A stretch of 64,000 bases of DNA. Source: Adhaeribacter arboris. Lineage in GTDB: Bacteria; Bacteroidota; Bacteroidia; Cytophagales; Hymenobacteraceae. The stretch covers positions 6,386,001-6,450,000 of the forward strand of contig NZ_PYFT01000001.1 of the NCBI RefSeq assembly GCF_003023845.1, in the 5' to 3' direction. The first letter of the stretch is position 1, and each line of letters starts with the position of its first letter. The notes below the pieces were generated by a model, which had not been told where the DNA came from, made no database searches, and saw nothing but the letters and a program-made list of their open reading frames with translations. Shown here one piece after another: positions 246 through 53,800 of the stretch. Both the position numbers and the translations under genes were made by a program.

Positions 246-2438
246 TTAAGCAGGTAAGAGTACTTCATCCGGCTGAATAATGATTGGCTGAGGTAATTTT
301 GCTTTGTTTGACTTTTTAGATGATTTATGCTTGGTTAAAGCGAGCGTATCGTCGTTTTTGACTAAAACTCCATTTAATAACACTTCAATAGGAGCTTGAG
401 TTACTTTCATAATGTCCTCAAAAACGGCTTGGTCTGTCTCCTGCCAAGAGCGGTTTGCTCTTACGGTAAGCACAATCAAATCAAGATACTTTAAAAGAGA
501 AGTTGGATATGTACTTTCCAGTACGGCCGGAAACTCCACCAAAACCACAGAATAATTTGAATGATTTTCGCCAATAATATCTGCAAAAATTATTCGATTA
601 TTTAATCCGTAGATAGGCGAGTAAAAGCAGGTGTGTGTACCAGAAGCTACTTGCTTGGCATGATCATCCGGGAATAAAGCTAAGGTTTTTATTCCTTTTG
701 CATTTAGTTGATTTGCCAGGATGCTGATAACCGTGCTTTTTCCTTCTTCGGTTAAGCTGCTTAAAACACCAATGATGAACGGTTCACGCGCATTTCTTTT
801 CTGTTGCATTTTTAAAAGAAGCTGCCGGGTAAGAGTATCTTCTGCCCTCTTACTAATTAAAACCTGGCGTTTACTTTTACCAAATAATATAGGCAGAATA
901 CCTAATACCGGAAAACCGGTTTGGCGGGCAGCTTCCCGCATATTTCTTAGAGAGTTATCTAATAATTCGGAACCCACCATGTAAGCGGAAACCACAAAAA
1001 AGGTTCCGAAGGTGCCAAACAACAATAACAGTAATAAATTAGATTTTGTGGGTTTAATGGGAGTATAAGGTGGATCTACTACCGTAAGTTGCGAAGTAAT
1101 TTCGATATTACGCTGATTAAGTTTACTTTCGGATAAGCCATTCAGTAAAGAGAAATACTCTTTTTCAGCCAGATCTTTTTCGCGCTCAATTTTTCGTAAT
1201 TCAGCTCCCAAAGGCGCTACTTTATTATATTCTTCGCCAAATACTTTTAATTGTCTCCGGATTACAAATAATTGTCCTTTAAGCTCCTCCACCAGAACAG
1301 TGTTTTTTATCCATTCATCCAGTAAATCTTTACTCACAACGGCTTGAGCAGATTGAATTTTAGAATAAGCATTATCCAAAGTAATTTTTATCTTGTTTTC
1401 AATTACATCGGCTTTCTGTTTAAAGCTAGCTAATTGGTTTGTAGCAGTAGGATTGGTTCTACTCCGGTTAATTATTTCTATTTCCGCAATCTGAGTATTT
1501 AATTTTGATAATTGATCTCTTAACTCTATAATTTCCTGGTTATACAATGTTACCGCGCCACGCTCTTTTAAAGTTCTTTCCACTACTTTAAGCGCCGAAA
1601 ATGCTCCGGCATATTGCATTTCTAAGGAGTTATAATTTTCCAGCATGTGCTGTTTATCTGCCGCAATAGCCGAAGCTTGTTCGCTGTAATTAATAAGGCT
1701 ATTGGTTTTATGAAATTGTAAGAAACTTTCCTCCGCGGCCTCCAATCTCTTATATGAATTTGAGGTAGCAGTTTCGAAATATTTCATTACCGATTCGTTT
1801 TGGCCTTCCATTAATTCGGTATGCTTCCGGATAAAAACGCTGCTTAGAATTTCGAGAGTTTGCCGGCACATGGCGGCATCGTTAGACGTATAATCGACTC
1901 TTAATAAATTGCTGTTAGGTAATTGGCTAGCGTAAATATTAGAAAGTGCTTTCAGAGAATACCCAGCTACGTCTGAGTTTAGAATAGTGTAAATTTCGTT
2001 TTGCTCGCCGGATTTTAAATAATTTTCCAGATTCTTAACCGTTTCTTCCAAGGTTGCACCCACTAATTTTTTCTTTAAAGATTCTGAAATCAGCCCTTTT
2101 AAGTCCGTGTAGGTTTTCCAGCTAAGCACCGATGGATCATACTCCTTTAACATAAGGTGCGATGCTAATAAACGTAGGGCAACTTCTTGCTTTGTTTCTC
2201 GGGAGTTAATAAGGTTGAGAAGGTTTGCAAAAGCGCGGGTAGTAGCAAAGTAATCAGAGCTGTTATCTGCTTTTATCCCTACGCCAGACGCTATACCAGT
2301 ATAAATAACAGTATCCGAAGCATACTCTTTATCCATTCTGCGGGCAAAGAAAAATATAGTGGCTCCGGTAATTAAAGGTATACTGATTAGTATAAGCCAA
2401 TTGCGCAGTATTAACCGGTAAAAACTCTTAAATGTCAT
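246..2438 (-). CDS. GumC/Wzc-like exopolysaccharide chain-length protein with degenerate BY-kinase domain
   Basis: This 730-residue inner-membrane protein has the polysaccharide co-polymerase layout: a membrane segment near residues 13-32, a long periplasmic coiled-coil part (about 190-450), a second membrane segment near 478-500, and a cytoplasmic P-loop domain from about 550. The family regulates polymer length and export together with the outer-membrane channel. The P-loop reads SSLTEEGKST (GKST at 566-569), lacking the usual PGEGKS glycine. The Walker B-like strand is VVLVEFP instead of a strand ending in Asp, and the C-terminal tyrosine cluster of BY-kinases is missing. It overlaps the upstream TolC-like gene by four bases (ATGA), suggesting translational coupling. 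Family assignment is firm; kinase activity is doubtful. Confidence 0.88.
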   Translation of the reverse strand: MTFKSFYRLILRNWLILISIPLITGATIFFFARRMDKEYASDTVIYTGIASGVGIKADNSSDYFATTRAFANLLNLINSRETKQEVALRLLASHLMLKEYDPSVLSWKTYTDLKGLISESLKKKLVGATLEETVKNLENYLKSGEQNEIYTILNSDVAGYSLKALSNIYASQLPNSNLLRVDYTSNDAAMCRQTLEILSSVFIRKHTELMEGQNESVMKYFETATSNSYKRLEAAEESFLQFHKTNSLINYSEQASAIAADKQHMLENYNSLEMQYAGAFSALKVVERTLKERGAVTLYNQEIIELRDQLSKLNTQIAEIEIINRSRTNPTATNQLASFKQKADVIENKIKITLDNAYSKIQSAQAVVSKDLLDEWIKNTVLVEELKGQLFVIRRQLKVFGEEYNKVAPLGAELRKIEREKDLAEKEYFSLLNGLSESKLNQRNIEITSQLTVVDPPYTPIKPTKSNLLLLLLFGTFGTFFVVSAYMVGSELLDNSLRNMREAARQTGFPVLGILPILFGKSKRQVLISKRAEDTLTRQLLLKMQQKRNAREPFIIGVLSSLTEEGKSTVISILANQLNAKGIKTLALFPDDHAKQVASGTHTCFYSPIYGLNNRIIFADIIGENHSNYSVVLVEFPAVLESTYPTSLLKYLDLIVLTVRANRSWQETDQAVFEDIMKVTQAPIEVLLNGVLVKNDDTLALTKHKSSKKSNKAKLPQPIIIQPDEVLLPA

Positions 2439-3181
2439 TTGCCGTTCATTAAATCGTTAAGGTTCATTCCTATTAGTTCTTCTAGTAACAGAAATGTTGT
2501 TTCGTATTTGTTTTTAAATTGCTCCTGAACTAAAGCCGCTTTGGTGTATAAATCATTTACAGTCATTAATTCATCCAGTTGGATCTGCCCAAGCTTAAAC
2601 TTTTTATCGGCTATTTTTTTATTTACATTCGCCGATTGCAGCGCATCCACCGTTTGTTCCCAAGTAACCTTTGCTAAGGTTAGCTCCTGGTAAGTGTTAA
2701 TAATAAGTTGCCTGATTTCTCTTTCCTGGGTTTTACGGTCCGATTCAGCTTGTTTTAAGACTAATTCCTGGCGATGCAGTTCGTACCGACGGCTTAAAAG
2801 TTGCCCTAAGGATAGGCTTAGATTTACTCCCACATTGTACTGGGCTCGGGCGGGCATATTAAAAGCATTAATTTGACTTACCTGTTGGTCGCCATTAACA
2901 GTATTCAACATGGAGCCGTAACTATAACCAGTGCCTACAGCTAAACCATTTAATACTTGTTTTCGGGATAAGCGAATATTGTCGTAGGCGATTTGTTTAG
3001 CCGCATCTAGTTTTTCAACTTGGGCAGAATATTTAACAGCAGCGTCTATTAACAAGGGGAGTGTTACTTCCGGAGCTTTAAAAAATCTTTCCTGCCAATC
3101 TGCCGTTAGCTTGGAATTGCTTTGCCCGAATGCTAGTAAAATGCTACAGGATAAAAGAATAGAAAGTAAAAATTTTTTCAT
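2435..3181 (-). CDS. Short TolC-family outer-membrane protein
   Basis: The protein starts with a signal peptide (MKKFLLSILLSCSILLAFGQ) and is otherwise alpha-helical with TolC-like features: ILLs of small and charged residues, long amphipathic helices, and a central stretch YNVGVNLSLSLGQLL resembling the strand-rich part of TolC proteins. At 248 residues it is about half the usual 420-480, so it holds one helical-hairpin repeat instead of two. It is squeezed between the sugar transferase, whose stop it abuts, and the chain-length protein, which it overlaps by four bases. It may be the outer-membrane or periplasmic partner of polysaccharide export; the channel role is inferred. Confidence 0.75.
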   Translation of the reverse strand: MKKFLLSILLSCSILLAFGQSNSKLTADWQERFFKAPEVTLPLLIDAAVKYSAQVEKLDAAKQIAYDNIRLSRKQVLNGLAVGTGYSYGSMLNTVNGDQQVSQINAFNMPARAQYNVGVNLSLSLGQLLSRRYELHRQELVLKQAESDRKTQEREIRQLIINTYQELTLAKVTWEQTVDALQSANVNKKIADKKFKLGQIQLDELMTVNDLYTKAALVQEQFKNKYETTFLLLEELIGMNLNDLMNGK

Positions 3182-4353
3182 TAAACGTTTTCTTTTTGAA
3201 AGAGAGCCGGAAAGGTTTTTAGAATAATCTGTAAGTCCTTCTTAAGGGAGAAGCTTTTGGCGTACTCAATGTCTAACTCTTTGCGTTCTTCTTCCGACAT
3301 ATTTCCGCCTTTACCCCGTTTGCTAACCTGCCAAAGACCAGTAATGCCGGCCGGAGCAATAAATCTGGCTGCAAATTGGTCGGTAGTAATTTTTTCTGCT
3401 TCGTATAAAGGCAGCGGACGATTTCCAACAATAGACATGTCGCCACGCAAAACATTATATAACTGGGGAAGTTCATCTAAACTGGTATTGCGTAGGAACA
3501 TGCCTATTTTAGTTATACGAGGATCATTGGCGATTTTAATAAAAGCAGCGCCATTTTCGGCTCGTTTTGCTACTTTGTATTGCTTTTCACATACTGGTTT
3601 TCCGTGGCCATCAATAAGCTGATTCTGACACATGGTACCAGCTGCCGCACAGGCAGTACATAGAGAGGTAAATTGTTGAGTCGGCTCCTCTACGGACGAT
3701 TTCTGGTACTGGTTTAAGTTTTTCATGGAAGCCAGCATCTTATCGGCATTTGGTCGCATAGAGCGAAATTTCCAAAATCGAAAGGTGCGGTATCCGGTAC
3801 CTACCCGGTAGGAGTAATAGAATGCAGGTCCTTTAGATTCCAGCTTTACTAATAGAGCGAGGAGCAGAAACAAAGGGGAGAGACATAATAAAGCAGTGAC
3901 GGATACTAAAACATCAAAAATACGCTTACCAATTGGATTCTTGTAAGCGTAAGGATTTTTTTTGGATTGAAGAGCAGCAGTTTTACCTGAGTGCGATAAA
4001 TAATCAAGCCGGGTTAGTAGTTTTTCTTTTTCTGGGTTTTGCGAAAATATGTCGGAAACTCCAGCCTCTGCAAGCAGGGTTTCTAAATTAGAAGAAACAG
4101 CATCGTTCGTTAACCAGAAAACCGGTTCTTTAATGCCTATATCTTTTTTAAGGGTCCGAATCAGATTCAGGCCCAACGGTGAAGTAAGAGTGGCAGAATT
4201 AAAGATAGCATCAAAATATTCGCCTTTGGCTAACCAGGAAAGGAAATTAGTTGGATTATCAAAGTACCATACCTCTAAATCTTCCGCGAATTCGGAAGTG
4301 AAGTTTTGAATTTCCTGTTCGTCAGAAGCGAGACAGACTACTCTCTTTCTCAT
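3181..4353 (-). CDS. Polyprenyl-phosphate sugar-1-phosphate transferase with N-terminal pseudo-receiver
   Basis: The C-terminal half (about 140-390) is a bacterial sugar transferase of the WcaJ/EpsL type. It has one membrane helix at 146-170, a WKFRSM motif near 195-199, the catalytic stretch SLDELPQLYNVLRGDMS (291-307), and NRPLP. It would transfer a hexose-1-phosphate to undecaprenyl phosphate, the first step of exopolysaccharide repeat-unit assembly. Residues 1-120 resemble a response-regulator receiver fold, but the phospho-acceptor region reads FDAIFNS, with no suitable Asp. Between these parts of the catalytic domain is an insert with four cysteines (232, 235, 242, 255) that could bind a metal. 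It is in an operon with the TolC-like and chain-length genes and 11 bases from the response regulator upstream. Confidence 0.9.
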   Translation of the reverse strand: MRKRVVCLASDEQEIQNFTSEFAEDLEVWYFDNPTNFLSWLAKGEYFDAIFNSATLTSPLGLNLIRTLKKDIGIKEPVFWLTNDAVSSNLETLLAEAGVSDIFSQNPEKEKLLTRLDYLSHSGKTAALQSKKNPYAYKNPIGKRIFDVLVSVTALLCLSPLFLLLALLVKLESKGPAFYYSYRVGTGYRTFRFWKFRSMRPNADKMLASMKNLNQYQKSSVEEPTQQFTSLCTACAAAGTMCQNQLIDGHGKPVCEKQYKVAKRAENGAAFIKIANDPRITKIGMFLRNTSLDELPQLYNVLRGDMSIVGNRPLPLYEAEKITTDQFAARFIAPAGITGLWQVSKRGKGGNMSEEERKELDIEYAKSFSLKKDLQIILKTFPALFQKENV

Positions 4354-4364
4354 GGTAAAAATTA

Positions 4365-4742
4365 TTATACTTTAATTCTTCTTAATATATTTTTAATCCG
4401 AACATCTAATTCCTCCGGATTAAAAGGCTTTACCATGTAATCGTCGGCACCTTGTCTTAAGCAGGTTATCTTATTACTAGTCTCATCTTTGCCCGACAAC
4501 ATAATTAATGGAATGTTACAAAACCGGGTGCTGATTCGTAATTGTTTAATAAAATCAAGACCATTCATGAAAGGCATTTCGAAGTCAGCCACAATAACAT
4601 CTATGTGATGACCTTCTTGAAGCCAGGCCATTGCTTCCTGACCGTTCGACTTTAGCTGTACGCTGTATTCTTTAGAAAAATAATGTTCTAATATCAGCCC
4701 TATAGATGGCTCATCGTCCACGATTAGTAGTTTTTTCTTCAT
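4365..4742 (-). CDS. Single-domain response regulator (CheY/OmpR-type receiver)
   Basis: A 125-residue stand-alone receiver domain: acidic pair D9-D10, phospho-acceptor D53 in VADFEMP, the LSG switch segment, and K105 in VKPFNPEEL. There is no output domain. The start MKKKLLIVDDE at 4742 is preferred because the receiver fold begins right there; an in-frame ATG 24 codons upstream (4814) would add a tail without family resemblance. It lies 11 bases upstream of the sugar transferase and is the first gene of that operon, so phosphorylation may tune exopolysaccharide synthesis by protein contact. The upstream hybrid sensor, with an intact Hpt domain, is a plausible phospho-donor by position. Confidence 0.9.
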   Translation of the reverse strand: MKKKLLIVDDEPSIGLILEHYFSKEYSVQLKSNGQEAMAWLQEGHHIDVIVADFEMPFMNGLDFIKQLRISTRFCNIPLIMLSGKDETSNKITCLRQGADDYMVKPFNPEELDVRIKNILRRIKV

Positions 4743-4814
4743 AGATGGAAAAATTGATAAGTATTGTTTAAATATTCTGAAAGATGCACATTGTCTTATG
4801 TCTGTAAAATCCAA

Positions 4815-5167
4815 TTCCGTGCCAGTAAAGCATTAATGCTTTTTACTTGAAAGAATTTTATGAAACAAAACTTCTTATATTAATTTCATAAGAGTAAGAG
4901 GAAGTAAATGTATATTTCTTTTTATTAACAAAATAATATTTAGAGAAATATTATTTTGTTAATCTCCTTGCTTTTAATCAATAAAATATGCGTTTTATAA
5001 GCTGTAAACCGAATATTTATGACTTAAGTTCAATTATGTAAAAAGCTAAAATATTAATAATTTTATATTTATATGGGATTATGTAAATAGAAAATATAAA
5101 AAGATAAAGTGCGGGAATTAGTAATAGTGTTGTTTAATTTGCTTTAATTATTTATATGTATACGGAT
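4815..5167. other. Intergenic region with AT-rich hairpin
   Basis: This 353-base AT-rich gap separates the response regulator from the upstream hybrid sensor, both on the minus strand. Its one clear structure is the perfect inverted repeat at 4925-4962. The part nearer 4814 must hold the promoter of the response regulator-exopolysaccharide operon, but no confident promoter could be picked by eye. No gene is seen. Confidence 0.6.
4925..4962 (-). terminator. Perfect 17-bp AT-rich hairpin
   Basis: Two 17-base arms (4925-4941 and 4946-4962) are perfectly complementary around an AGAG loop. The arms end in A/T runs, but the stem is almost free of G and C. It lies about 200 bases downstream of the hybrid sensor stop codon. 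It could be a weak terminator or, equally, a palindromic binding site upstream of the exopolysaccharide operon. Confidence 0.4.
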
Positions 5168-7111
5168 TTAAGACTTAACTTCTGCGTGTAGTTGTTCTTG
5201 GAATATAGCTATAACCTTTTCCGTTATATCCAAAACTGTTTGGAGTAAGATATCTAACTCTGGTAAGCTGGTTTTCTTACTACTTAGTTCTTCCATCTTC
5301 ATAGCAGCTTGGGCAGCTTCTACAATTCCTATATTTCCGTAAGTAGATTTAAGGCTATGCGCAATTTGGGCAACAGTGTTCCAATCTTTCTGGGAGATGG
5401 CACTGGAAAGCTTGTCGAGTTGGCCAGGTACTAAATCGATAAATAATTGCTGCATCTTTCTAACAAAATCTGCGTCTTCTGCCAAATTGCCTAAACCCGA
5501 AAAATCGTACAAGGCAGGCTCATATTTTGTTGATTCTGACTCTTTACTAGGCTGATAATCAGTAAGTTGCTCCTGGGTATTTTCAATAACAAACGAGGAT
5601 TCGTTCTCATTAGCTATTTCATCTAATTGATCTTTAGCTGCAATGTTGCGGGTAACAGTAAGATACAAGTTTGCTTCGGGATAGGGTTTGAATAAATAAT
5701 CGGAAAAGCCAGATTCTTTATATTTATTTACATCAATTTTTAAAGCATTAGCGGTGAATGCAATTATAGGTGTGCTCTGATTAGGGTTAGGCTCTTTTCG
5801 AATAATAGCTGTTGCCTCAATACCGTTCATGTGAGGCATGTCTATATCCATTAATATAAGATCATACGGCTTCGCTTTAGCTTTTTCCCAAGCTTCTTTT
5901 CCGTCATGGGCTACTTCTACCTGCGTTTCCCAAAATTTTAATTGAGAAACAACTAATAATTGATTAGCGGGATTGTCTTCGGCTAATAAAATATGTAAGC
6001 CTTTTAAATCATTTGAATTTTCGGGTATCTTCAGGTCTTTTGATGCATTTAGGTTTTCACTTAATGGAAAAGGTAAAACAAACGAAAATTGAATTTCTTT
6101 TTTAAGTTTGGTTTCCAGCCATATTTGGCCACCCTGAAGCTCAATTATTTTTTTACAAATTTTAAGTCCAATATCCGAATGGTTAAATGCATACTCTTCA
6201 TTAGATTCGTTCTTTGAAGGGTTATTAAAAAAAAATTTCAATTTGTCTATTTCATGACTCCAATCACTCGCTTGAATAGAAAACTCCACATACACTACAT
6301 CTTCTATTTTCTCTTTCATTCGGGAACTTACCAAAATCCTACCATTAGAGGTATGTTTAATACTGAAGTAAATAAGATTAGTAATTATTTGATTTAAACG
6401 ATATAGATCGCCTTTTACTAAAGGAAGGTTAGGAGCTAGTTCACCAATTTGCAATAAAACATCATGATCTTCTGCTTGAGCTACTAAAGCACTGATAATG
6501 TATTGTAAGATAGAAGTTATATCAAACGTAGTAGTTTTAAATTCAACATTGCTTGTTTGAAGCTTAGAAAACTCTAATATTTGAGCAGGAGTTTCTAAAA
6601 GATTACCGGCAACTTTTTGAATTAAGTTTAGATAACCTTCCTGTTCTTTATGGATGTTACCTTTTTTTAAAAAACTTGTGATGCCGGATATTGTATTTAT
6701 ATCTGCTTTAAATTCTTTAATTAAAGTACTTAAAAACAATTGCGTGTATTTAGCAGGCTCCTGGTTTTTTTGGATAATCTCTTTAAACTTAGTAATATCA
6801 TTGGAAGTAGATAAGAGAAAACGTGTACCACTAAGCGCTGTAAATGCTTTCTTGGTGGTATTAAACCAAATTACTTGTCCATTCTGCTGTTTATAGAACT
6901 CCTCAAAAGTAACTTGAGAATGTGATTTTATAATTTCCAGGTCCTTATCATAATACAAATCCGGATCCAGCCCACCTTTATCTAATAAAGCCGATGCACT
7001 TTGTCCGTACAGTTGAGCAAAGGCTTCGTTCATAAATACAAATTTACCTTGCTCATTCCGCACATAAATAGGATTAGGATTAATTTCGATTAGCTGCTGA
7101 ATAAATTCCAT
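5168..7111 (-). CDS. PAS - degenerate histidine kinase - receiver - Hpt hybrid signalling protein
   Basis: Domains in order: PAS (about 5-110, NPIYVRNEQGKFVFMNEAF), a region in the place of HisKA (about 123-190), an HATPase_c-like region (195-350), a receiver (371-490) and an Hpt domain (540-640). In the HisKA part the usual SHEIRTPL box is IKEFKADI, so the phospho-His is replaced by K132. The N-box reads NLIYFSIKHT, with the second Asn replaced by F249, and the G1 box DxGxG is DWSHE. By contrast the receiver keeps its acidic pair, D422 (MDID) and K475, and the Hpt keeps H585 (AHSLKST). It therefore looks like a phosphotransfer or phosphatase/adaptor protein without autokinase activity. No membrane segments, so it is cytoplasmic. 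It stands upstream of the response regulator and exopolysaccharide genes on the same strand. Confidence 0.87.
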   Translation of the reverse strand: MEFIQQLIEINPNPIYVRNEQGKFVFMNEAFAQLYGQSASALLDKGGLDPDLYYDKDLEIIKSHSQVTFEEFYKQQNGQVIWFNTTKKAFTALSGTRFLLSTSNDITKFKEIIQKNQEPAKYTQLFLSTLIKEFKADINTISGITSFLKKGNIHKEQEGYLNLIQKVAGNLLETPAQILEFSKLQTSNVEFKTTTFDITSILQYIISALVAQAEDHDVLLQIGELAPNLPLVKGDLYRLNQIITNLIYFSIKHTSNGRILVSSRMKEKIEDVVYVEFSIQASDWSHEIDKLKFFFNNPSKNESNEEYAFNHSDIGLKICKKIIELQGGQIWLETKLKKEIQFSFVLPFPLSENLNASKDLKIPENSNDLKGLHILLAEDNPANQLLVVSQLKFWETQVEVAHDGKEAWEKAKAKPYDLILMDIDMPHMNGIEATAIIRKEPNPNQSTPIIAFTANALKIDVNKYKESGFSDYLFKPYPEANLYLTVTRNIAAKDQLDEIANENESSFVIENTQEQLTDYQPSKESESTKYEPALYDFSGLGNLAEDADFVRKMQQLFIDLVPGQLDKLSSAISQKDWNTVAQIAHSLKSTYGNIGIVEAAQAAMKMEELSSKKTSLPELDILLQTVLDITEKVIAIFQEQLHAEVKS

Positions 7112-8016: not shown

Positions 8017-11000
8017 ATGGTTAATACCCAAGAGCCAGGTGTCACTCGTACCCAGGCCGCAAACATTGTGGGCGTGAAAACTCCTAAGCGCAAAGAGTTG
8101 TTCATTCTTAAAGTTCTCCTTATTGCCGGCCTCATTAGCCTGGTCGTATTTGCGCGGTGGTTGTTGCAGGAGGAGCATAGCGGATATTTTCCCCTTTATT
8201 TTTTATTGCTGCTTTCCTTAGGCTATAAAATGCTGCGAGTACTGCACGAATGGTACCATTACTGGGGCTTGAAAATTACGCCGCGGCCTCAGCCTACCCG
8301 TATCTGGACCGTTGATATGCTGACTACGGCCGTGCCGGGGGAGCCCTTCGAGATGATTAAGCAGACCTTGGAAGCCATGAAAGCAGTGCGCTACCCGCAT
8401 ACAACGTATCTCTGCGATGAAGGAAACGATCCTGCGCTGATAGCGCTTTGTCAAGAGCTGGATGTGGTACATGTAACCCGGACAGTAAAAGTAAATGCAA
8501 AAGCGGGCAATATCAACAACGCATTGCAGCAGGCTACCGGAGAACTTTGCGTGATTATGGATCCCGACCATATTCCGGTGCCTTCTTATCTGGATGAAGT
8601 GGTAGCTTACTTCGAAGATCCGCAAGTAGGTTACGTACAAATGGTACAAGCTTACTACAATGCCGAAGAAAGCTTTTTTGCCCGCGGCGCGGCGCAACAA
8701 ACGTATTTGTTTTACGGTCCGATGATGATGGGCATGAATGGTTACGGCACCGTGCAAGCTATTGGGGCGAATTGTACTTTCCGCCGGGCCGCTCTGGATT
8801 CTATTGGCGGGCATGCTCCTGGCCTCTCCGAAGATATGCATACGGCCATGCAGTTGCACGCCAAAGGCTGGAAATCGGTATATACACCGAAAATATTAAC
8901 CCGCGGCCTGGTGCCTAACACGCTGGCTTCGTACTTTAAACAACAGATCAAGTGGTCGCGCGGCACCTTTGATTTATTAGCTCATGTATATCCCCGGTTA
9001 TTCAAGAATTTTACCTGGCGCCAGAAGCTACATTACTTATTATTGCCCTTGCATTATGCCTTCGGTTTAATTGTGTTATTAGATATGCTCATTCCTGCTG
9101 CGGCTTTAGTAATGGGGCAGACTCCTTTATATATTGAATGGCACCAGTTTCTTTGGGTACTGCTTCCTTACTTAGGGCTAACTACCCTTATCCGGCAGTA
9201 CGCCCAGCGCTGGTTGCTGGAAGACCACGAAAAAGGCTTTCACCTGACGGGAGGAATATTGTTGTTTGCCAGTTGGTGGGTATTTTCTTTAGGATTGATT
9301 TATACCATTTTAAACATTAAAGTACCCTACATTGCCACCCCAAAGAACGACGAAGACCGCAACAACTGGTCTTTAAGTATGCCTAATTTAATTGTAGGTG
9401 GGTTGAACGTAGCTGCCTTGGTATATGGGTTATCACGCGATTGGAGTCCTTATAGTTGGATGATGGGCAGTTATGTCGGACTAAATATTGTTTTATTGAC
9501 GGTAGTTATTGCAGCCGCTCAGCCGGTATTACTCAAGCGGGTGAAAAAGTGGCTGCAACCTTTTTCTTTTATTCATTTGCTTTACCAGCCTTTTAAGATG
9601 CTGCGTCAGGTTATTTTGCCGGATACTTACCGTCTATTGCGCACGGGCGCACCTGTTTTAGCTATTCTTCTTTTCCTGACGTGTAATAGTTTTATTCTCT
9701 TTGACTACAATCCCAGCAAAGACTTAGAAGTACTCTACGGACCACAAACCAAAGACACGGGTGGTTTCTATACTGGTATGTATTTACCAACCAGTCAGCG
9801 AAATAATTTAGCTTCCGTTGATGCTTTGGAGAAAGATCTGGGAACAGACGTAAATATTGTTTCGGTTCATCAATCCTGGAAACCAGATAGCTTGTCTGCT
9901 TTTCCGCACTCTTTGTTCAACCGCCTTGCTCAACGGGGCGCTATTCCCCTGATTACTTGGAACCCACTTATTAGTAGCGCAACCGAAAGAGCAGAGAAAA
10001 CAGGACCAAATATTTTAAAAGCTATTGCTGCCGGAAAATACGATTCCTATATCAAAGCTTATGCAGGCTATATTCAGCAATATAATTATCCAGTTTTCAT
10101 TCAGTTTGCTCCCCAAGTAGATAACGAGGATAAATCGGGAAAGCTACACAATACGATTCACCCAGAAGTATTCAAAGCCGCTTACCGGCACGTTGTGGCT
10201 ACTTTTGCTACCTCCGGTGTTAATAATGTAAGCTGGGTGTGGCATCCGGCTCAACCCGAAGATATTACTTCTTATTACCCAGGCGAGAATTATGTAGATT
10301 GGATAGGAGTAACGTGTTTAAACTACGGCAAGGCCGCTAAAGATGGCAAATGGCGCACCTTTGAAGAACTTTATAAACCTTACCGCAACGAGGTTCTGAA
10401 ACTTAATAAGCCGGTTATGCTGACGGAGTTTGGTTCTACTAACTTCGGGGGCAACGGACAAGAATGGCTGGAATATTACTTGCCTTTGATTCCCAATTAC
10501 TACCGGGAAATCCGCTCTTTAGTGTTTTACCAAACCAACCAGGATCAAAACTGGCCCACTACCTGGCGACCAGAATCCAAAGCTAAAGGAATAGATTGGA
10601 CCATTAAAAATTCCACCCGGATAGCTAGAAATTACAAAAGAATAAGCCAAGAAGCATTTATCTGGCAAAAGCCCACGCTCGAACAGCGGGCTCTCCAACC
10701 GGCTTTGCTCAAAACTTTCCGGAAGAACCAAAAGCATTACTTAACGGGAACAGCGGGCCAGTATACGCTGCTGGTAAAAGGGCAACCTTTTTACGTGAAA
10801 GGAGTGGCTTACAACCCAGGACACGATTGGCGCGATGGCAATTATCCGCTTACCCGCCATCAGCTCGAACAAGATTTTTCTGCCATTAAAGCTATGGGAG
10901 CGAACACTATTCGCCGGTACAGTCCTAGTTTATACGATGATAATATTCTGACGATTGCTCAGGAGAAGGAGTTAAAAGTACTCTACGGTTTCTGGTTCGA

Positions 11001-11985
11001 TCCAAAAGTAGATTATTATAAAGATACCCTAAAAGTAAAAAAATACCTGCAAAAGGTAGAAGAAATGGTAAGTAAGTTTAAGGGAGAGCCGGCGGTACTA
11101 GGCTGGTCGGTGGGCAATGAAACCAGCAGTTTGCTCAAAAAGCATTTCAGTCAGCCTTACCTAAGTTTGAACCGGCTGGCCTATATGCACATGGTTGAGC
11201 TCATGGCGGAACGTATTCACCAACTCGATCCTACCCGGCCCGTCTTCACTTCGCTGGAACATTCGCGCCAGCTGCCCGGTGAGTTGCTGGCGTTTGATCA
11301 ACTGGTTCCAGGTGTAGATGTAGTAGGTATTAATTCGTATTATATCCAGCAAATCGGGCAATTACAAAAAATAGCTGCTCAGTTTAACCCGCATCGGCCT
11401 TACTTGGTTTCGGAGTTTGGCCCGAGTGGTTATTGGGATCCAGAATACACTTCTACCGATAAGAACAGTTTATTAATTGAAGAATCAAGCTCGCAGAAGA
11501 CCGCTTTATACACGCAAGAGTGGAAAGAATTTATTTCTAAGCATCAAGGATACAATATTGGCGGAGTGGCTTTCTGTTGGCGCGACCGGTTTGAGGGCTC
11601 CGCTACCTGGTTTGGCTTAACGGATTTCCGTGGCCGCAAAAAACCTGTTTATTATGCCCTGCAAAATACGTGGACCAAGCAAGTTTTTGTTCCCCAACCA
11701 AAAATAGCAATTGTGGGTCCTTCGGGTTATCTGGTGCCCAAAACTTCTTTCGAATTTACTGTTATTGGAGCTGGAGCCACTTACCACAAAATAGAATGGC
11801 AATTATATAAAGACGATTATTTAGATAAAATGGAAGTTATAGAAAAAACAGAACAAGCCAATAAAATAATGATTACGCTTCCGGAGCCGACTGGAGAGTA
11901 CCATTGCAATAAATACCGCTTGTATGTGTATGTATCAGATGGGAAAGGCAACGTGCTAACGGCTAGTAAATCCCTGGTGATGTAA
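8017..11985 (+). CDS. Membrane GT2 glycan synthase fused to GH26-like and GH2/GH5-like domains
   Basis: This 1322-residue protein has three modules. Residues 90-440 are a processive cellulose-synthase-like GT2 domain: CDEGND at 133-138, DPDH at 182-185, SED at 271-273 as the catalytic acid, and QQIKW (309-313) as a Q(Q/R)xRW variant. It is flanked by about two membrane helices before and six after (up to about 563). The last helix leads to the periplasm, where residues 570-880 resemble GH26: the strand WVWHP, YYPGENYVDWIGV, and a nucleophile-like E804 in MLTEFGS. The acid/base position appears to be Q700 (FAPQVDN). Residues 910-1230 are a GH2/GH5-type barrel with E1035 (GNE) and E1133 (SEFGP) both present. 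An Ig-like tail follows. The start was chosen at the first ATG; product and linkage are unknown. The gene probably forms an operon with the next one. Confidence 0.88.
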   Translation: MVNTQEPGVTRTQAANIVGVKTPKRKELFILKVLLIAGLISLVVFARWLLQEEHSGYFPLYFLLLLSLGYKMLRVLHEWYHYWGLKITPRPQPTRIWTVDMLTTAVPGEPFEMIKQTLEAMKAVRYPHTTYLCDEGNDPALIALCQELDVVHVTRTVKVNAKAGNINNALQQATGELCVIMDPDHIPVPSYLDEVVAYFEDPQVGYVQMVQAYYNAEESFFARGAAQQTYLFYGPMMMGMNGYGTVQAIGANCTFRRAALDSIGGHAPGLSEDMHTAMQLHAKGWKSVYTPKILTRGLVPNTLASYFKQQIKWSRGTFDLLAHVYPRLFKNFTWRQKLHYLLLPLHYAFGLIVLLDMLIPAAALVMGQTPLYIEWHQFLWVLLPYLGLTTLIRQYAQRWLLEDHEKGFHLTGGILLFASWWVFSLGLIYTILNIKVPYIATPKNDEDRNNWSLSMPNLIVGGLNVAALVYGLSRDWSPYSWMMGSYVGLNIVLLTVVIAAAQPVLLKRVKKWLQPFSFIHLLYQPFKMLRQVILPDTYRLLRTGAPVLAILLFLTCNSFILFDYNPSKDLEVLYGPQTKDTGGFYTGMYLPTSQRNNLASVDALEKDLGTDVNIVSVHQSWKPDSLSAFPHSLFNRLAQRGAIPLITWNPLISSATERAEKTGPNILKAIAAGKYDSYIKAYAGYIQQYNYPVFIQFAPQVDNEDKSGKLHNTIHPEVFKAAYRHVVATFATSGVNNVSWVWHPAQPEDITSYYPGENYVDWIGVTCLNYGKAAKDGKWRTFEELYKPYRNEVLKLNKPVMLTEFGSTNFGGNGQEWLEYYLPLIPNYYREIRSLVFYQTNQDQNWPTTWRPESKAKGIDWTIKNSTRIARNYKRISQEAFIWQKPTLEQRALQPALLKTFRKNQKHYLTGTAGQYTLLVKGQPFYVKGVAYNPGHDWRDGNYPLTRHQLEQDFSAIKAMGANTIRRYSPSLYDDNILTIAQEKELKVLYGFWFDPKVDYYKDTLKVKKYLQKVEEMVSKFKGEPAVLGWSVGNETSSLLKKHFSQPYLSLNRLAYMHMVELMAERIHQLDPTRPVFTSLEHSRQLPGELLAFDQLVPGVDVVGINSYYIQQIGQLQKIAAQFNPHRPYLVSEFGPSGYWDPEYTSTDKNSLLIEESSSQKTALYTQEWKEFISKHQGYNIGGVAFCWRDRFEGSATWFGLTDFRGRKKPVYYALQNTWTKQVFVPQPKIAIVGPSGYLVPKTSFEFTVIGAGATYHKIEWQLYKDDYLDKMEVIEKTEQANKIMITLPEPTGEYHCNKYRLYVYVSDGKGNVLTASKSLVM

Positions 11986-12032: not shown

Positions 12033-13415
12033 ATGCAGCTTAAAAACATTTTACTTTTACTTCTATCCTGTTTAACCTTGCTGGCCTTAGTCCTGGTGGT
12101 TAGTAGTAGTCGAAAACCTCGCCTTCGGAAACATCTTAATTTCCACTACGTGGAAGTACGACAAGAGAATGCTCACTATCAATTGTATCGCAATGGTATT
12201 CCGTATTTTATCAAAGGGGCTTGTGTGTACAAGGACTTTCCTTTACTAAAAGAAAGCGGTGGTAATTCCATTCGCCTGTATAACGTTAACCCCGACAGTG
12301 CTTTAATGATCTTGGACCGGGCACAAAAAGAAGGGTTAACGGTTACCGTAGGTTTAAATATCACTCCTGCCGGAACCTTAGACTACAGTGATGAAAAAGC
12401 AGTTGCCGCTCAGTTAAAGAGAATCAGGCAAGATGTACTTAAACTTAAAAATCATCCGGCCTTGCTTATGTGGGGTATTGGTAATGAATTAAGTTTTAAA
12501 TTAGAATTTAAGCACATCACCGAACATTACCGTTTGTGGACAGCAGTGAACGACATTGCCAAAATGATTCACGAACTGGACCCGGACCATCCTACTACCA
12601 CTATGATTTCCTCTGATGCAAAACCTTTAGTGCTTATTAGCTTACTCTGCGATGAAATTGATATTTTATCTATTAACATATTCGATAAAATGTCAGAAGT
12701 ATTAAAATTTACGATAGATTGGGCTTGGCGAGGACCTTATATGGCATCGGAATACGGCCCTCCGGGTTACTGGACTGCCGATCATACTGATTGGTATGCC
12801 AAAGTAGAATTAACCAGTTATGCTAAATCGCAAATTATTCGAAAACAATATCAAGAGCTGTTTGCCAATAAAAGTGAATGTTTGGGGTCTTACGCTTTTT
12901 TATGGAGTCAGAAACAAGAATATACAACTACTTGGTTTAGTTTATTTACCCAAACGGGCCAGCCAACGGAAATGATAGATGCTTTGCAATACAATTGGAT
13001 GAACGAATGGCCAGTAAACCGTGCTCCTAGTATTGCTTCTCTTATCATTAATCGCCAAAAAAACTCCAAGAATACTTATTTACAAGGAACTCTTAAGAAG
13101 TTCAAAGCAATCATTACAGCTAAAGATTTTGAAAATGATAAACTACAGCTTAATTGGGAAGTACAAAAAGACAACGTAGAAATTTATTTTGATCCTACTC
13201 TGGCACAAAATAAACCTGAAATAATTGTTAAAGGCAGGTTAAACTATAAAACATTACAAGAGAATAGACTAAAAACCTCTTCCACAACTTGGCAAAATTA
13301 TCAATTAGAGGTCCCTTCTCCTTCGCACGAAGGCCCTTATAGATTATTTATATATTTAACCGATGAACATAACAAAGTAGCTACGGGAAATGCTGCGTTT
13401 TACGTTACAAACTAA
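12033..13415 (+). CDS. Membrane-anchored GH2/GH5-type glycosidase or transglycosidase
   Basis: The 460-residue protein begins with a hydrophobic segment (about 4-23), then a basic stretch, which suggests an N-terminal membrane anchor; LLSC at 10-13 could be a lipobox but is followed by more hydrophobic residues. The barrel (about 45-320) is clearly related to the last catalytic module of the preceding synthase: both have a YFIKG/FYVKG opening, NSIRLYN/NTIRRYS, GIGNE/SVGNE, and ASEYGPPGYW/VSEFGPSGYW. E152 and E240 are the predicted acid/base and nucleophile. An Ig-like domain follows (about 335-455). It lies 47 bases after the synthase, so it likely acts on the same glycan, trimming or remodelling it on the periplasmic side. 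Substrate unknown. Confidence 0.82.
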   Translation: MQLKNILLLLLSCLTLLALVLVVSSSRKPRLRKHLNFHYVEVRQENAHYQLYRNGIPYFIKGACVYKDFPLLKESGGNSIRLYNVNPDSALMILDRAQKEGLTVTVGLNITPAGTLDYSDEKAVAAQLKRIRQDVLKLKNHPALLMWGIGNELSFKLEFKHITEHYRLWTAVNDIAKMIHELDPDHPTTTMISSDAKPLVLISLLCDEIDILSINIFDKMSEVLKFTIDWAWRGPYMASEYGPPGYWTADHTDWYAKVELTSYAKSQIIRKQYQELFANKSECLGSYAFLWSQKQEYTTTWFSLFTQTGQPTEMIDALQYNWMNEWPVNRAPSIASLIINRQKNSKNTYLQGTLKKFKAIITAKDFENDKLQLNWEVQKDNVEIYFDPTLAQNKPEIIVKGRLNYKTLQENRLKTSSTTWQNYQLEVPSPSHEGPYRLFIYLTDEHNKVATGNAAFYVTN

Positions 13416-39121: not shown

Positions 39122-41104
39122 TTACCCTCTGAGCTTTTTAATAAGCTCTAAAATCTTTATATGTGTCTCTTGAGCCTCTATAAATTTTTTTTGCTCGTAG
39201 AGAGCATCTTTTAAACCAATATAGTTCTTAATTAGGCTTTCATAATTTTCTATTTCTATGTTGATTTCGATAGCTTTTGTGAACATCTCTTCTGCATCCG
39301 CATACTCTTCTTGTTTTCGTAGTATATTTCCTAAATTTCCATAATCACTTGCTATACCGCTTTTTCTTCCAAGTTCTTTTTCAATTTGCAGACTTTTTTT
39401 AATCATTTCTTTGGCTTTATCAAATTCCTCCTTTTTCTGAAAGATTATTCCGAAATTCCCATAAACAAGTGCTAAGCCTTCACGGCTTCCAAGCTTTTGG
39501 TTTAAAACTAAAGCCTTATTAAGCAGCTCTTCTATTCTATTTAAATTAACCTTGGTTTGACGAAAGTCATCTTTAGCTTGGAGTGTCATTGCTAGATTTA
39601 CATAATCTAAACCAAGGCTTTCAGAATCTCCGAGTTGTTGGTGAATAATCAAAGATTTGTTAAGCATCTCTTCAGCTCCCACAAAATCTTCTTTGTATAC
39701 TAAAATTTTTGCCAAACTACCATAATTCGCAGCTATGCCTTCTTGTCTTCCAAGTTTTTCTTCAATCTCTAAGCTATTTTTAAAAATCTGCTCGGCTTTG
39801 GACAAGTCAATACCATCGATATAAAGGTTTCCTAAACTTCCATAGGTTGAAGCCATTCCTGTTAGATTTCCGAGTTGATGGTAGATTTCTAAACTTTGAG
39901 AATACAGTTCAATGGCTTCTAGAATTTTACCTTGATTTGTAAGAAGATTCGCTAAGTTGCCAAGACAAGCTGCAATCCCTTCCTGGTTCTCAATCGTTTC
40001 GTAAAATTTTAATGCCTTCCTATACATTTGTTCAGCAATGGACCAATCCCCTTTGGCTAGATGAACTATACCTAAACTATTGAGACTAGAAGCAGTACCT
40101 TCATAATTATTTAACTTTTCATAGATTTCTAATGCCTTGTTATACATCTGTTCGGATTCTTGCCAATCTCCTCTGTCTTGAAGAAGATTTCCTAAAGTTT
40201 TCAATGCATATGCTTCGTTTAAATTGTCTTTTGAATCACGAGTTAACTTTAGTACTTTTTGTACCATGTGCAGCGCTTGATCAATACGGCCAATCCTAGT
40301 TAAAAAATTAGCATAATTTAGTAGCTGGAATACACCAGGCTCATTAACTAATGCTTTAGAAAATTCAATTTCAGCTTGTACTAATTGCCCATTGTCAGCA
40401 AGTTGCCAAGCATTTGTTATTCCTTCAACTATCTCAGTGGTTACATTTAACCTATAACTAGAAATTTTTTCTTCAGGTGTAGTAACATTGGGTACATAAC
40501 TGGCGTCTATGATTTTTGAAGTAGTAGGCGTGCTAATTATTTTGTCACTCTTTGGTAGATCAGTTAAATCATTTATCCATATTGCTAAATGATTTTCAAG
40601 TATATTATTGAATTCACGTGTAGTAGTAAAGGTACCATAGCCAAGTATTTTCTCAGTAGTCTCAAATTTCTTTCTAAAAGCTAATACTTTTTTTAACTGG
40701 GGACCCGCATCACTTAACTGATTAGCGTTACTAATGGACTTAAACAATACAATAATATCTCTCATTGGGAATTCTTTACTATCATAGCATTCCCTTGCCA
40801 CATTAAATTCTTCCTCAGTTCCGGAGGTTGCATTATATGCATTTTTACCGGGATTAGAACCCCATCGATCATGTAATACCATTATAAAATAATCACACTT
40901 TCTTATTTCCTCATTAATGCGAGCCTGAGCTCTTCCCATACCAGCAGGCATTTCTTCGTAACGTATTGCTTCAAATATTACTCCTCTGCGTTTAGCTTCC
41001 TTGGTATTATAATTTTCAATTGCCTTTTTAAAACTATCGCGTTCTTTTTTAAGATTTCCAGGAGAAGCAATGAAAATTTTATACCCTTTAAGTTCAAATG
41101 ACAT
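39122..41104 (-). CDS. DUF4062-TPR protein
   Basis: Residues 1-190 match the DUF4062 pattern: GYKIFIASPGNLKKERDSF, IFEAIRYEE, EEIRKCDYFIMVLHDRWG and SGTEEEFNVAREC, a Rossmann-like fold related to TIR domains. From about 225 to 655 the protein is made of about nine to ten tetratricopeptide repeats of 40 residues (for example AYALKTLGNLLQDRGDWQESE), of the TPR_12 kind. There is no ATPase or NACHT domain. DUF4062 is often found in STAND and defence-like proteins, so a sensing role is conceivable. It stands alone between the small antitoxin-like genes and tRNA-Leu. Start ATG at 41104. Confidence 0.85.
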   Translation of the reverse strand: MSFELKGYKIFIASPGNLKKERDSFKKAIENYNTKEAKRRGVIFEAIRYEEMPAGMGRAQARINEEIRKCDYFIMVLHDRWGSNPGKNAYNATSGTEEEFNVARECYDSKEFPMRDIIVLFKSISNANQLSDAGPQLKKVLAFRKKFETTEKILGYGTFTTTREFNNILENHLAIWINDLTDLPKSDKIISTPTTSKIIDASYVPNVTTPEEKISSYRLNVTTEIVEGITNAWQLADNGQLVQAEIEFSKALVNEPGVFQLLNYANFLTRIGRIDQALHMVQKVLKLTRDSKDNLNEAYALKTLGNLLQDRGDWQESEQMYNKALEIYEKLNNYEGTASSLNSLGIVHLAKGDWSIAEQMYRKALKFYETIENQEGIAACLGNLANLLTNQGKILEAIELYSQSLEIYHQLGNLTGMASTYGSLGNLYIDGIDLSKAEQIFKNSLEIEEKLGRQEGIAANYGSLAKILVYKEDFVGAEEMLNKSLIIHQQLGDSESLGLDYVNLAMTLQAKDDFRQTKVNLNRIEELLNKALVLNQKLGSREGLALVYGNFGIIFQKKEEFDKAKEMIKKSLQIEKELGRKSGIASDYGNLGNILRKQEEYADAEEMFTKAIEINIEIENYESLIKNYIGLKDALYEQKKFIEAQETHIKILELIKKLRG

Positions 41105-50889: not shown

Positions 50890-53800
50890 TTAACGGGTGA
50901 GTATTACTTTCTGATTACTTTGGATATCCTTGGTTTGCAGGCGCAGAATGTAAATACCAGCTGATGCATGATTGCCCTGCCATTGACGCATATAAGTTTG
51001 ATTAGCGAGGGCTTCTCCTTGAAATAAAGTGGTTACTTCCCGGCCTTGGCTATCGTACACCTTTAAACTAACTTTTTGCGTTTGCGGCACCCTAAAACGG
51101 ACGGTTACTTCTTGCACAAACGGATTCGGATAGGCTGAGAAGGGTAGGAGTGAAGCGGGGTTCGTAACTTCCTGATTAACGGCCGGCTGCCTGGCAGCTA
51201 CCAGCGGCGTAATAGTTTTTACCGGAGCTACTTTCACTAACCAGAAATCATTTTCTCCTTGGCTGGGCTGGGCTCGGTCGCCGCTTACGCCCGAACTTGA
51301 CCGCCCGCCCAGCAAATATCCGCCATCACTGGTCGGCCACACGGCCCGGAGCTCTTCTTCCTGGCTGCCGCCATAGCGTTTGTCCCAGAGCTTATTACCC
51401 GCCGCATCAGTTTTAACAATCCAGTAATCACTCGCGCCCTGGCTGGCCTGACTTTTATCCCCACTTTTGCCGGAGAAAGAAGTTCCCCCAAGTACATAAC
51501 CACCATCTTTATCGGTAATCAACGAACGTAAGGTTTCTTCTCCCGCGCCACCGTAAGTTTTATCCCATTGTTTTTCTCCTAAGTTATTCACTTGCAGCAG
51601 CCAGTAATCTTTACTCCCTTGGCTAGCCTGGCTCTTATCCCCGCTTACTCCGGAAGCACTATGGCCGGCTAAAAGGATAGTGTTGAAACTAGGGTTAACT
51701 ATTGCTAAAAGCTGATCTTGGTTATTACCGCCGTAACGTTTGTCCCAGAGTTTTTTACCTTGGTTATCCGTGCGTAGCAGCCAATAATCACTTCCGCCCT
51801 GGTTGCCCTGAGTTTTATCGCCGGAAGCCGATGAGAAGGAAGTGCCGCCCACCAGTAAATCTCCGTTGGCCAAGGCTAATACATCTCCCATATATTCATC
51901 GTCTGCTCCCCCGTAGCGGTTATCCCAGCCTATGGCACCGTTAAAACTATAAATTTTTACTAACCAGTAATCTTTACCTCCTTGGCTGTCTTGAGTTTTA
52001 TCCCCGCTCACCGGCGAATCACTGTATCCGGCTAGTAAATAAGTATCGGAATAGGCATCGGGTAATAATATAATTTTCTGAAGATCTTCGGTGTTGCTAC
52101 CGCCATAGCTTCGATCCCATTCTTTTTCCCCGCTGCTGCTTATTTTTACTACCCAAATATCCCGGCCTCCTTTATTGGGCGCCGTTTTATTGCCGTTGAT
52201 TCCCGATTCGGAACTTCCGCCCAGTAAAAAGCCGCCATCTTTAGTGGAGATAATACTTTTCAGGTAATCTTCCCCTGAGCCACCGTATCGTCTATCCCAA
52301 AGTTTGGCACCTGCTGCATCCGTTTTCACGACCCAATAGTCGCTCTTCCCGTAACTGCTCTGGCTTTTATCGCCTGATTGACCAGAATTGGAGTAACCGC
52401 CGAGCAAATATCCGCCGTCGTTAGTGGGAAGAACCGTGGTTAAGTAATCGGATTGATTCCCTCCGTAACGCAGGTTCCAGGCCGCGAGAGAAGCAGGTGG
52501 AAAGGCGCTGATTTTGGTTTCTACTAACCAGAAATCGTAATCGCCTTTACTATTTTCCGTTTTTTCGTAGCCGATATTAGAATTAGAATGGCCCCCGAGT
52601 AAATATCCGCCGTTGGGAGTAGCCATAATGGCCGCTAATTGGTCGGATTCGCTGGAACCGAAACTTTTATCCGCTATCTTTTTACCATCTCCATCTATTT
52701 CTACGAGCCAGTAATCTTGATTGCCTCTATTTTCTTCGGTCCGGTCAAATCCAATGTTTGACCAGGAATAACCCGCTATTAAATAATGATCATTGGAGGT
52801 AGGCAGAATATCGATCGGAATAGAATAGTTTGTTTCACAGGCAAAACAATAAATAGAATTTCCTAAGAAAAAATTACTCCAAACAGAATTTCCTTTAGCG
52901 TCGACTTTAAGGGCCCAATAGCCATAGGTTTCAAAACCAGAAATTCCTACCAGTACATAACCGCCATCGGGCGTAGCAACCATTGAGGTAAGTTTATTAT
53001 AAAAATCCCGGTTGTAGTTTTTATCCCAGAGCTGATTGCCATTACCGTTTATTTTTACCAACCAAAAGTCATTGCCACCTTCATTATTTGTATTTTGCCC
53101 GCCTACCAGGTAATTTCCATCGGGCGTAGCAATGAGGGAAGTAAGAATTTCATCGGTTGCTTTACCCAGGGTTTTATCCCAAACTTTATTGCCTTTGCTA
53201 TCTACCTTTACTACCCAGAAGTCAGTAGGAGTTTGGCCAAATTCATCGGTTTTACCTTGATTTTCTTCGCTTTTATCGCCGCTCTTCCCTGATTTAGAAG
53301 TACCTCCCAGTACATAACCGCCATCCGTGGTGGCCACTAAAGTTGAAAGATTGTCATCTAAATTACCGCCAATGGTTTTGTTCCACAGTTTATTGCCATA
53401 GGCATCTACTTTTACCAGCCAATAATCATTATTTCCTTTACTAGCCTCACTTTTATCGCCGTTTATACCCGAACTGGAAGTACCACCCAGCAAATAACCG
53501 CCGTCCGAAGTAGAAATAATAGTAGCTAGTTTTTCAGTACCTTTGCCGCCGAAAGATTTATCCCAAATTTTCTTTTTGTTCGTATCGGTTTTTACCAGCC
53601 AGTAATCGGAAAGTCCTTTATTAGCGGTGCTTTTATCGCCGGAAATACCCGAAAAAGAGGTGCCGCCTATTAAATAACCGCCATCCGGCGTAGCTACCAT
53701 ATCGGCTAAGTTATCGATGCTATTTCCGCCAATGGTTTTATCATTTTGGGGAGTGAGACGTTGTACCCGAAAACTAGCGGTAAATTCAACGGGGCTATAA

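Follow-up and report, generated by a model that had tools for sequence, protein, structure and literature searches.

The stretch of 64,000 nucleotides from Adhaeribacter arboris that was analysed here in full (positions 6,386,001 to 6,450,000 of contig NZ_PYFT01000001.1, forward strand; henceforth the window) contains a reading frame of 1322 residues in which a glycan synthase of family GT2 is fused to two glycosidase modules, and it raises the question what glycosidases could be doing on the very chain that makes a glycan. Our answer, to which we assign a probability of roughly 55%, is that the gene would encode the synthase of a beta-1,3-containing glucan and that the growing polymer would meet two tethered modules, a pseudo-glycosidase of family GH26 and an active enzyme of family GH158. 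Such a glucan is the expected substrate because the last module belongs to GH158, and the lineages of the two modules both point to a glucan with beta-1,3 and possibly also beta-1,4 links.

Domain order and identity of the modules

A preliminary description of the sequence had placed a glycan synthase and glycosidase modules in one frame and had called for a domain search. The search bears the description out: the frame 8017-11985 matched BcsA (GT2), CtLic26A (GH26) and the PDB entry 9oro (GH158). Residues 570-880, described as GH26-like, matched that family both by sequence and by profile (residues 600-856 against CtLic26A), and other proteins with the same domain order were found in two sister species, which carry the same chain at 80% identity, and across the Bacteroidota. 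The supposed GH2/GH5-like barrel with a separate Ig-like tail kept its barrel and its Ig-like part but lost its family label, as the PDB and profile matches replace it by one complete GH158 module, a fold that comprises both parts. The features are the following:

8017..11985, + strand: whole synthase gene, 1322 residues, in the order GT2, transmembrane part, GH26, GH158 (matches in Pfam, NCBIfam and PDB; two sister species carry the same chain)
8281..9216, + strand: GT2 catalytic core, residues 89-400, with D134, D182xD184, E272-D273 and Q309-xx-K312-W313 (BcsA match, 1e-39)
9646..9702, + strand: predicted additional membrane helix, residues 544-562, preceded by a loop rich in K/R (hydropathy and positive-inside rule)
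9754..10656, + strand: GH26 module, residues ~580-880, lichenase lineage by its matches, degenerate active site (Pfam and PDB matches; profile of 14 relatives)
10114..10116, + strand: codon of Q700 (CAA), GH26 acid/base position (alignment to CtLic26A)
10426..10428, + strand: codon of E804, GH26 nucleophile position (alignment to CtLic26A)
10714..11982, + strand: tethered GH158, barrel ~900-1222 and Ig-like part ~1226-1322 (PDB match, profile comparisons)
11119..11121, + strand: codon of E1035, GH158 acid/base position in GNE (alignment to GH158 structures)
11413..11415, + strand: codon of E1133, GH158 nucleophile position (alignment to GH158 structures)
12033..13415, + strand: free GH158 gene, 460 residues, both acids kept, 47 bp downstream of the synthase (9oro match, 1e-60)

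The tethered GH26 module

The GH26 module belongs to the lineage of the lichenase CtLic26A (endoglucanase H), which residues 600-856 match with E-values of 4e-19 when the whole chain is searched and 4e-20 when the module is taken alone. With a profile built from 14 tethered GH26 modules that have both catalytic acids, that of the window excluded, CtLic26A scored 138 bits, and a beta-1,3-xylanase came next with 41.5. The overlay of residue 700 on the GH26 acid/base that had been proposed was done by sequence alignment to CtLic26A: Q700 coincides with the glutamate of the 'HE' motif and E804 with the glutamate of the second motif, two residues that we take to be the acid/base and the nucleophile of CtLic26A. 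The window module reads P699-Q700, and the acid/base glutamate after the histidine is absent while the nucleophile glutamate E804 is present, just as had been described.

Read from the wider alignment, Q700 is one step in a more extensive loss of the active site in the GH26 modules of the window genus. The 113 GH26 domains with both acids (from a total of 161, not de-duplicated, and with the two sisters among the 113) share E649 (95%), R696 (97%), H699 (93%), Y706 (96%) and W708 (94%), and all five residues are lost in the window and in both sister species; what the window module keeps is E804 and framework residues that include W742, P744, P755, D761, W817 and W861. The module is most likely a pseudo-glycosidase in the window species and in both sisters. 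The sisters carry E at position 700, Q700 having been seen in one genome, but their E700 is weak evidence of GH26 activity because the five other conserved residues are lost there too. These losses also narrow the earlier suggestion that the module may bind or transglycosylate, since they favour a pseudo-glycosidase over a transglycosylase. That Q700 would be a feature of the whole family was rejected, as 76 of the 93 three-module synthases considered below keep both GH26 acids and the sisters have E700. A free GH26 that would compensate for a dead tethered one is not the general rule either: in a search of 16 genomes, a free GH26 of ~800 bits was found in two genomes whose tethered GH26 is dead (G664 and G699) and in one (G708) although its tethered GH26 keeps both acids, and none was found in the window genome, the two sisters, G539 or the two-module genomes G011, G020 and G303.

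The tethered GH158 module

The C-terminal module is a complete GH158 (an endo-beta-1,3-glucanase family), and the Ig-like part belongs to the enzyme because the solved GH158 consists of a barrel and a C-terminal Ig-like part, with E137 and E220 as catalytic residues (PMC7157763). Residues 955-1317 match 9oro at 3e-24 in the whole chain and at 3e-25 alone. With a profile of 30 tethered C-terminal modules that have both acids, the two GH158 structures scored 149 and 145 bits and GH2, the family ranked next, 42; a profile comparison of tethered modules with 18 free GH158s reached a probability of 100 (25% identity over 384 columns). In agreement with the statement that the last domain keeps both acids, E1035 (GNE) and E1133 (SEFGP) align with the GNE and TE(F/W)GP motifs of two GH158 structures. 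The window module keeps its catalytic core, namely W1030, G1033, N1034, E1035, D1101, N1106, E1133, W1140, E1155, K1161, W1188 and E1193, all of which are conserved in the free enzymes, and it has an N-terminal part of its own and signature residues common to its subfamily.

Spread of the family and loss of catalytic residues

The layout is that of a conserved and widespread Bacteroidota family. At E ≤ 1e-60 the synthase was found, with a patchy distribution, in 3 of the 8 genomes searched within the window genus, in 79 of 390 genomes sampled from the order and in 16 of 395 from the phylum. A scan with a 16-row alignment of three-module chains recovered 480 relatives, and the genera among the best 79 of these 480 loci (which lean to the three-module layout) included Pontibacter, Algoriphagus, Belliella, Chitinophaga, Pedobacter, Gelidibacter, Larkinella and others. 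The counts given in the following refer either to a set of 85 loci (the window and 84 others, L048 being left out) or to 149 non-redundant synthases, in which both sets were pooled, identical or short-core rows were dropped (164 to 149) and species may recur. The 85 loci comprised 32 chains of the layout GT2-GH26-GH158, 30 of GT2-GH26, 16 of GT2 alone and 7 of GT2-GH158, each of the latter accompanied by a free GH26 gene; GT2, GH26 and GH158 were encountered fused or separate in at least five arrangements, as expected for parts of one pathway. At L048 (6459-11986, genome G040), stop codons and frame changes interrupt both a three-module synthase and the GH158 gene next to it.

The catalytic acids are distributed unevenly over these arrangements. 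Both acids are kept by the free GH158s in 78 of 78 cases (85 loci) and in 136 of 138 (149 set), the two exceptions, L210 and L236, having a gap at the acid/base column. The tethered GH158s show both in 14/39 and 37/103 cases, respectively, one of the remaining 66 (L179) ending at a contig end before the second acid. The tethered GH26 of three-module chains keeps both acids in 27/32 and 76/93 cases and the free GH26 in 12/12 (85 loci), and the nucleophile is kept in none of the 30 two-module GT2-GH26 chains of the 85 loci (the acid/base alignment is gapped in 12 of these 30 rows, which makes single letters there uncertain). Among the 93 three-module chains, 54 (L179 included) have the GH26 acids only, 22 both pairs, 12 the GH158 acids only and 5 neither, and the 22 that keep both led us to reject the idea that an active GH26 and an active GH158 strictly exclude each other. 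Three of the 10 GT2-GH158 chains keep the GH158 acids. The fewest changes on a FastTree tree were 11 for the state of GH26, 3 for that of GH158 and 10 for the layout, counts that give no direction.

The retention of modules that have lost catalysis speaks for a role in binding or structure, and the near-constant presence of both acids in the free GH158 indicates that cutting is required. We tentatively put forward, at somewhat less than even odds, a more general reading for the Bacteroidota synthases with built-in glycosidases: the modules would serve as exit guides that start out active, repeatedly lose catalysis and then act as pseudo-glycosidase channels, the cutting being left to the free GH158. 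The family offers a natural series of synthases in which the modules are absent, dead, half-dead or intact, so that the role of a glycosidase at the exit of a polysaccharide channel becomes directly testable.

The GT2 synthase and its predicted membrane topology

Residues 89-401 match BcsA at an E-value of 1e-39 (search of PDB sequences with the whole chain), and the D, DxD and ED motifs of BcsA-type GT2 enzymes are present in the window synthase: D134 is kept in 148 of 149 relatives and D182, D184, E272 and D273 in all 149. The fourth motif departs from the BcsA type, since QxxKW replaces QxxRW in 149/149 relatives, with Q and W kept and R changed to K. In the gating loop, T441 and K443 are found in 149/149, the window sequence being YIATPK as compared to the pattern FxVTxK.

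The topology was predicted from hydropathy and charge (positive-inside rule). The total of about eight membrane helices that had been counted is better read as seven membrane helices, two before the GT domain, four after it and the extra helix 544-562, plus one interface helix near residues 413-432 that is assigned by analogy with BcsA. The loop 504-543 carries a net charge of +7 in the window (family mean +6.4, n=145), and a 19-mer with a Kyte-Doolittle value (KD) above 1.6 lies at the position of 544-562 in 122 of 145 relatives. Because this loop is strongly positive, helix 544-562 should run outward and place the GH26 and GH158 modules in the periplasm, the location that had been assumed for them.

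In a tree of 32 GT2 rows the family joins the ApsS-like synthases of rhizobia with a support of 93/84, and BcsA and a protein carrying the annotation curdlan synthase stand apart from it as a separate group (97/95). As long branches meet in this tree, the grouping is moderate evidence; plain BLAST leaves the ApsS-like and BcsA matches undivided (135 vs 134 bits), and the GT2 identity to the ApsS-like synthases is 28-29%.

Comparison with known systems

One of the two nearest known designs is that of the NdvB and 'Orphan' GH17-GT2 synthases of pseudomonads, in which a BcsA-like GT2 and a periplasmic glycosidase share one chain and for which beta-1,3-glucan has been proposed as the product (PMC10237404). 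In these the GT2 is preceded by one GH17 module; in the window synthase it is followed by GH26 and GH158, a free GH158 gene lies downstream, and no GH17 match was listed for the synthase in the scans of the domain libraries. The idea that glycosidases act on the exiting chain therefore has a precedent in the periplasmic GH17 of the NdvB type. BcsA, CrdS and BgsA share with the window synthase the D, DxD and ED motifs and the T and K of the gating loop (PMC6821405); they differ in having no fused glycosidase and QxxRW instead of QxxKW.

The other, the rhizobial ApsS/ApsE system, has the nearest GT2 outside the Bacteroidota in the tree and encodes a GH26 of the same lineage alongside, but there the proteins are separate, no GH158 was found in the scanned stretches (~6 kb each), and the polysaccharide made by the system contains arabinose (PMC7902896). 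Two rhizobial plasmid clusters, L240 and L242, have an ApsS-like GT2 together with a GH26 of the tethered-module lineage. The gene order of L242 fits the APS operon named in the same source, and by our reading of this order its genes are uxs1, uxe, apsS, apsH1, apsE and apsH2; L240 is without annotation.

At the level of single modules, the tethered GH158 resembles BuGH158 (6pal) and 9oro in its barrel and Ig-like part and in its GNE and (S/T)E(F/W)GP motifs, and differs from them by its N-terminal part, its own signature residues and the 66 of 103 tethered modules that do not show both acids. CtLic26A is the best PDB match of the tethered GH26 and differs from it by the active-site residues that the modules of the window genus have lost. 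The attachment of a glycosidase to a GT2 synthase is thus known from the NdvB type. New, as far as found, are the order GT2-GH26-GH158, the range over which it occurs in the Bacteroidota and the decay that its modules have repeatedly undergone: none of these was found in literature searches in which most subscription papers and bioRxiv lay outside coverage, so that absence is not proof. Within the same coverage, the earlier remark that no characterised synthase has this layout holds.

Proposed mechanism and alternative explanations

We propose that a processive GT2 in the inner membrane makes a beta-1,3 or mixed beta-1,3;1,4 glucan, a product predicted from the two glycosidase families, and extrudes it into the periplasm, where the chain would meet the two modules tethered via the extra membrane helix. 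The GH26 pseudo-glycosidase would bind or guide the chain, the tethered GH158 would probably cut or re-join it, and the free GH158 of the next gene may share or complete the cutting. If so, many Bacteroidota, best known as glucan eaters, would make a beta-1,3-containing glucan of their own by means of a dedicated synthase (79/390 genomes of the order).

Several points weigh against this proposal. With respect to the GH26, Q700 was seen in one genome, and the modules of the window genus have ordinary identities (70 and 72%, where 23 pairs of similar GT2 divergence average 72%), for which reason an extra divergence of the whole module was rejected. With respect to the GH158, the tethered module is 25% identical to the free enzymes (384 columns) and is without W1147, K1191 and H1074, which 93-100% of the free GH158s keep. 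The GH158 enzymes described act mainly on beta-1,3-glucan, which speaks for the proposal, but the activity of BuGH158 on mixed-linkage glucan and curdlan is about a hundredfold below that on its best substrate, by our reading laminarin (PMC7157763), and this weakens the case for a curdlan or mixed-linkage product. Finally, the sugar is not certain, because the GT2s nearest in the tree outside the Bacteroidota are ApsS-like (93/84) and belong to a system whose product contains arabinose.

The tethered GH158 could instead act by transglycosylation and so cyclise, lengthen or branch the chain, as is proposed for the GH17 module of the NdvB-type synthases, which likewise combine a GT2 with a glycosidase in the periplasm (PMC10237404). 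This fits with the signature residues of the module and with its match to the Pfam model of the GH72 glucanosyltransferases (34.9 bits, cut-off 25.9), a match that occurs in 16 of the 30 tethered modules scanned, the window's included, and is listed for none of the 18 free GH158s (E ≤ 0.001; the free GH158 of the window matches at 0.03). Families of clan A cross-match, however, and GH2_C scores higher on the tethered module (48 bits); the 25 PDB sequences matched at 1e-5 by the tethered-module profile include no GH72 entry, and no residue that marks transglycosylation was found. We regard this explanation as unlikely but worth keeping in view.

An equally improbable alternative concerns the polymer, which would be a polysaccharide other than beta-glucan, as in the rhizobial APS system, the specificity of GH26 and GH158 having drifted. 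The grouping of the ApsS-like GT2s of L240 and L242 with the family (93/84) is in line with this, as is the fit of the GH26 beside them to the family GH26 model, ~137 bits vs 18-45 for the other four GH26s of the window genome. On the other hand, the GT2 identity is low (28-29%), the rhizobial stretches scanned lack a GH158, and no UDP-sugar enzyme (decarboxylase, epimerase) was found among the window neighbours that were run against Pfam, the neighbours of the relatives being mostly not annotated.

Less probable again is that the modules form a release or clearing endoglycanase that trims misplaced or stalled chains in the periplasm, much as a separate endoglucanase acts beside cellulose synthase. 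A free GH158 with both acids is indeed usual near the synthase even where no module is tethered (11 of 16 GT2-alone loci, both acids kept in 11/11), but the explanation leaves unaccounted for why modules without catalysis are retained (25/39 tethered GH158s, 30/30 two-module GH26s). An assembly artefact or chance fusion is refuted, as both sister species and dozens of further genomes carry the same chain and relatives occur across the phylum.

The free GH158 and the gene neighbourhood

The free GH158 of the window (12033-13415) lies on the same strand as the synthase, 47 bp downstream, matches 9oro at 1e-60 (209 bits) and keeps both acids. Its signal (12033-12130) is without a lipobox-like cysteine (VVS), which the sister genes seem to have (ACS, ACN). 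A GH158 gene was present in the fetched stretch of 138 of the 149 synthases, in all orientations and at no more than 500 bp in 132 of the 138. Three of the 11 synthases without one (L071, L158 and L159) have a free GH26 gene in the stretch, which possibly indicates a different linkage. In L069 (10991-12676) and its relatives, the free GH26 beside GT2-GH158 chains matches the GH26 model twice, and the consensus of the first half seems to be without the nucleophile glutamate.

On the other side, the synthase is adjoined by a divergently oriented block of genes on the - strand (246-7111), which both sister species also have; its products are an unassigned protein of 730 residues, a protein of the outer-membrane efflux type, a sugar transferase, a response regulator and a hybrid histidine kinase. 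Further away in the window, a 1505-residue protein (50890-55410, - strand) is encoded near genes for a TonB receptor and SusD, its sole Pfam match (1e-5) being a C-terminal secretion sorting domain, and a protein with DUF4062 and TPR repeats is encoded at 39122-41104 (- strand).

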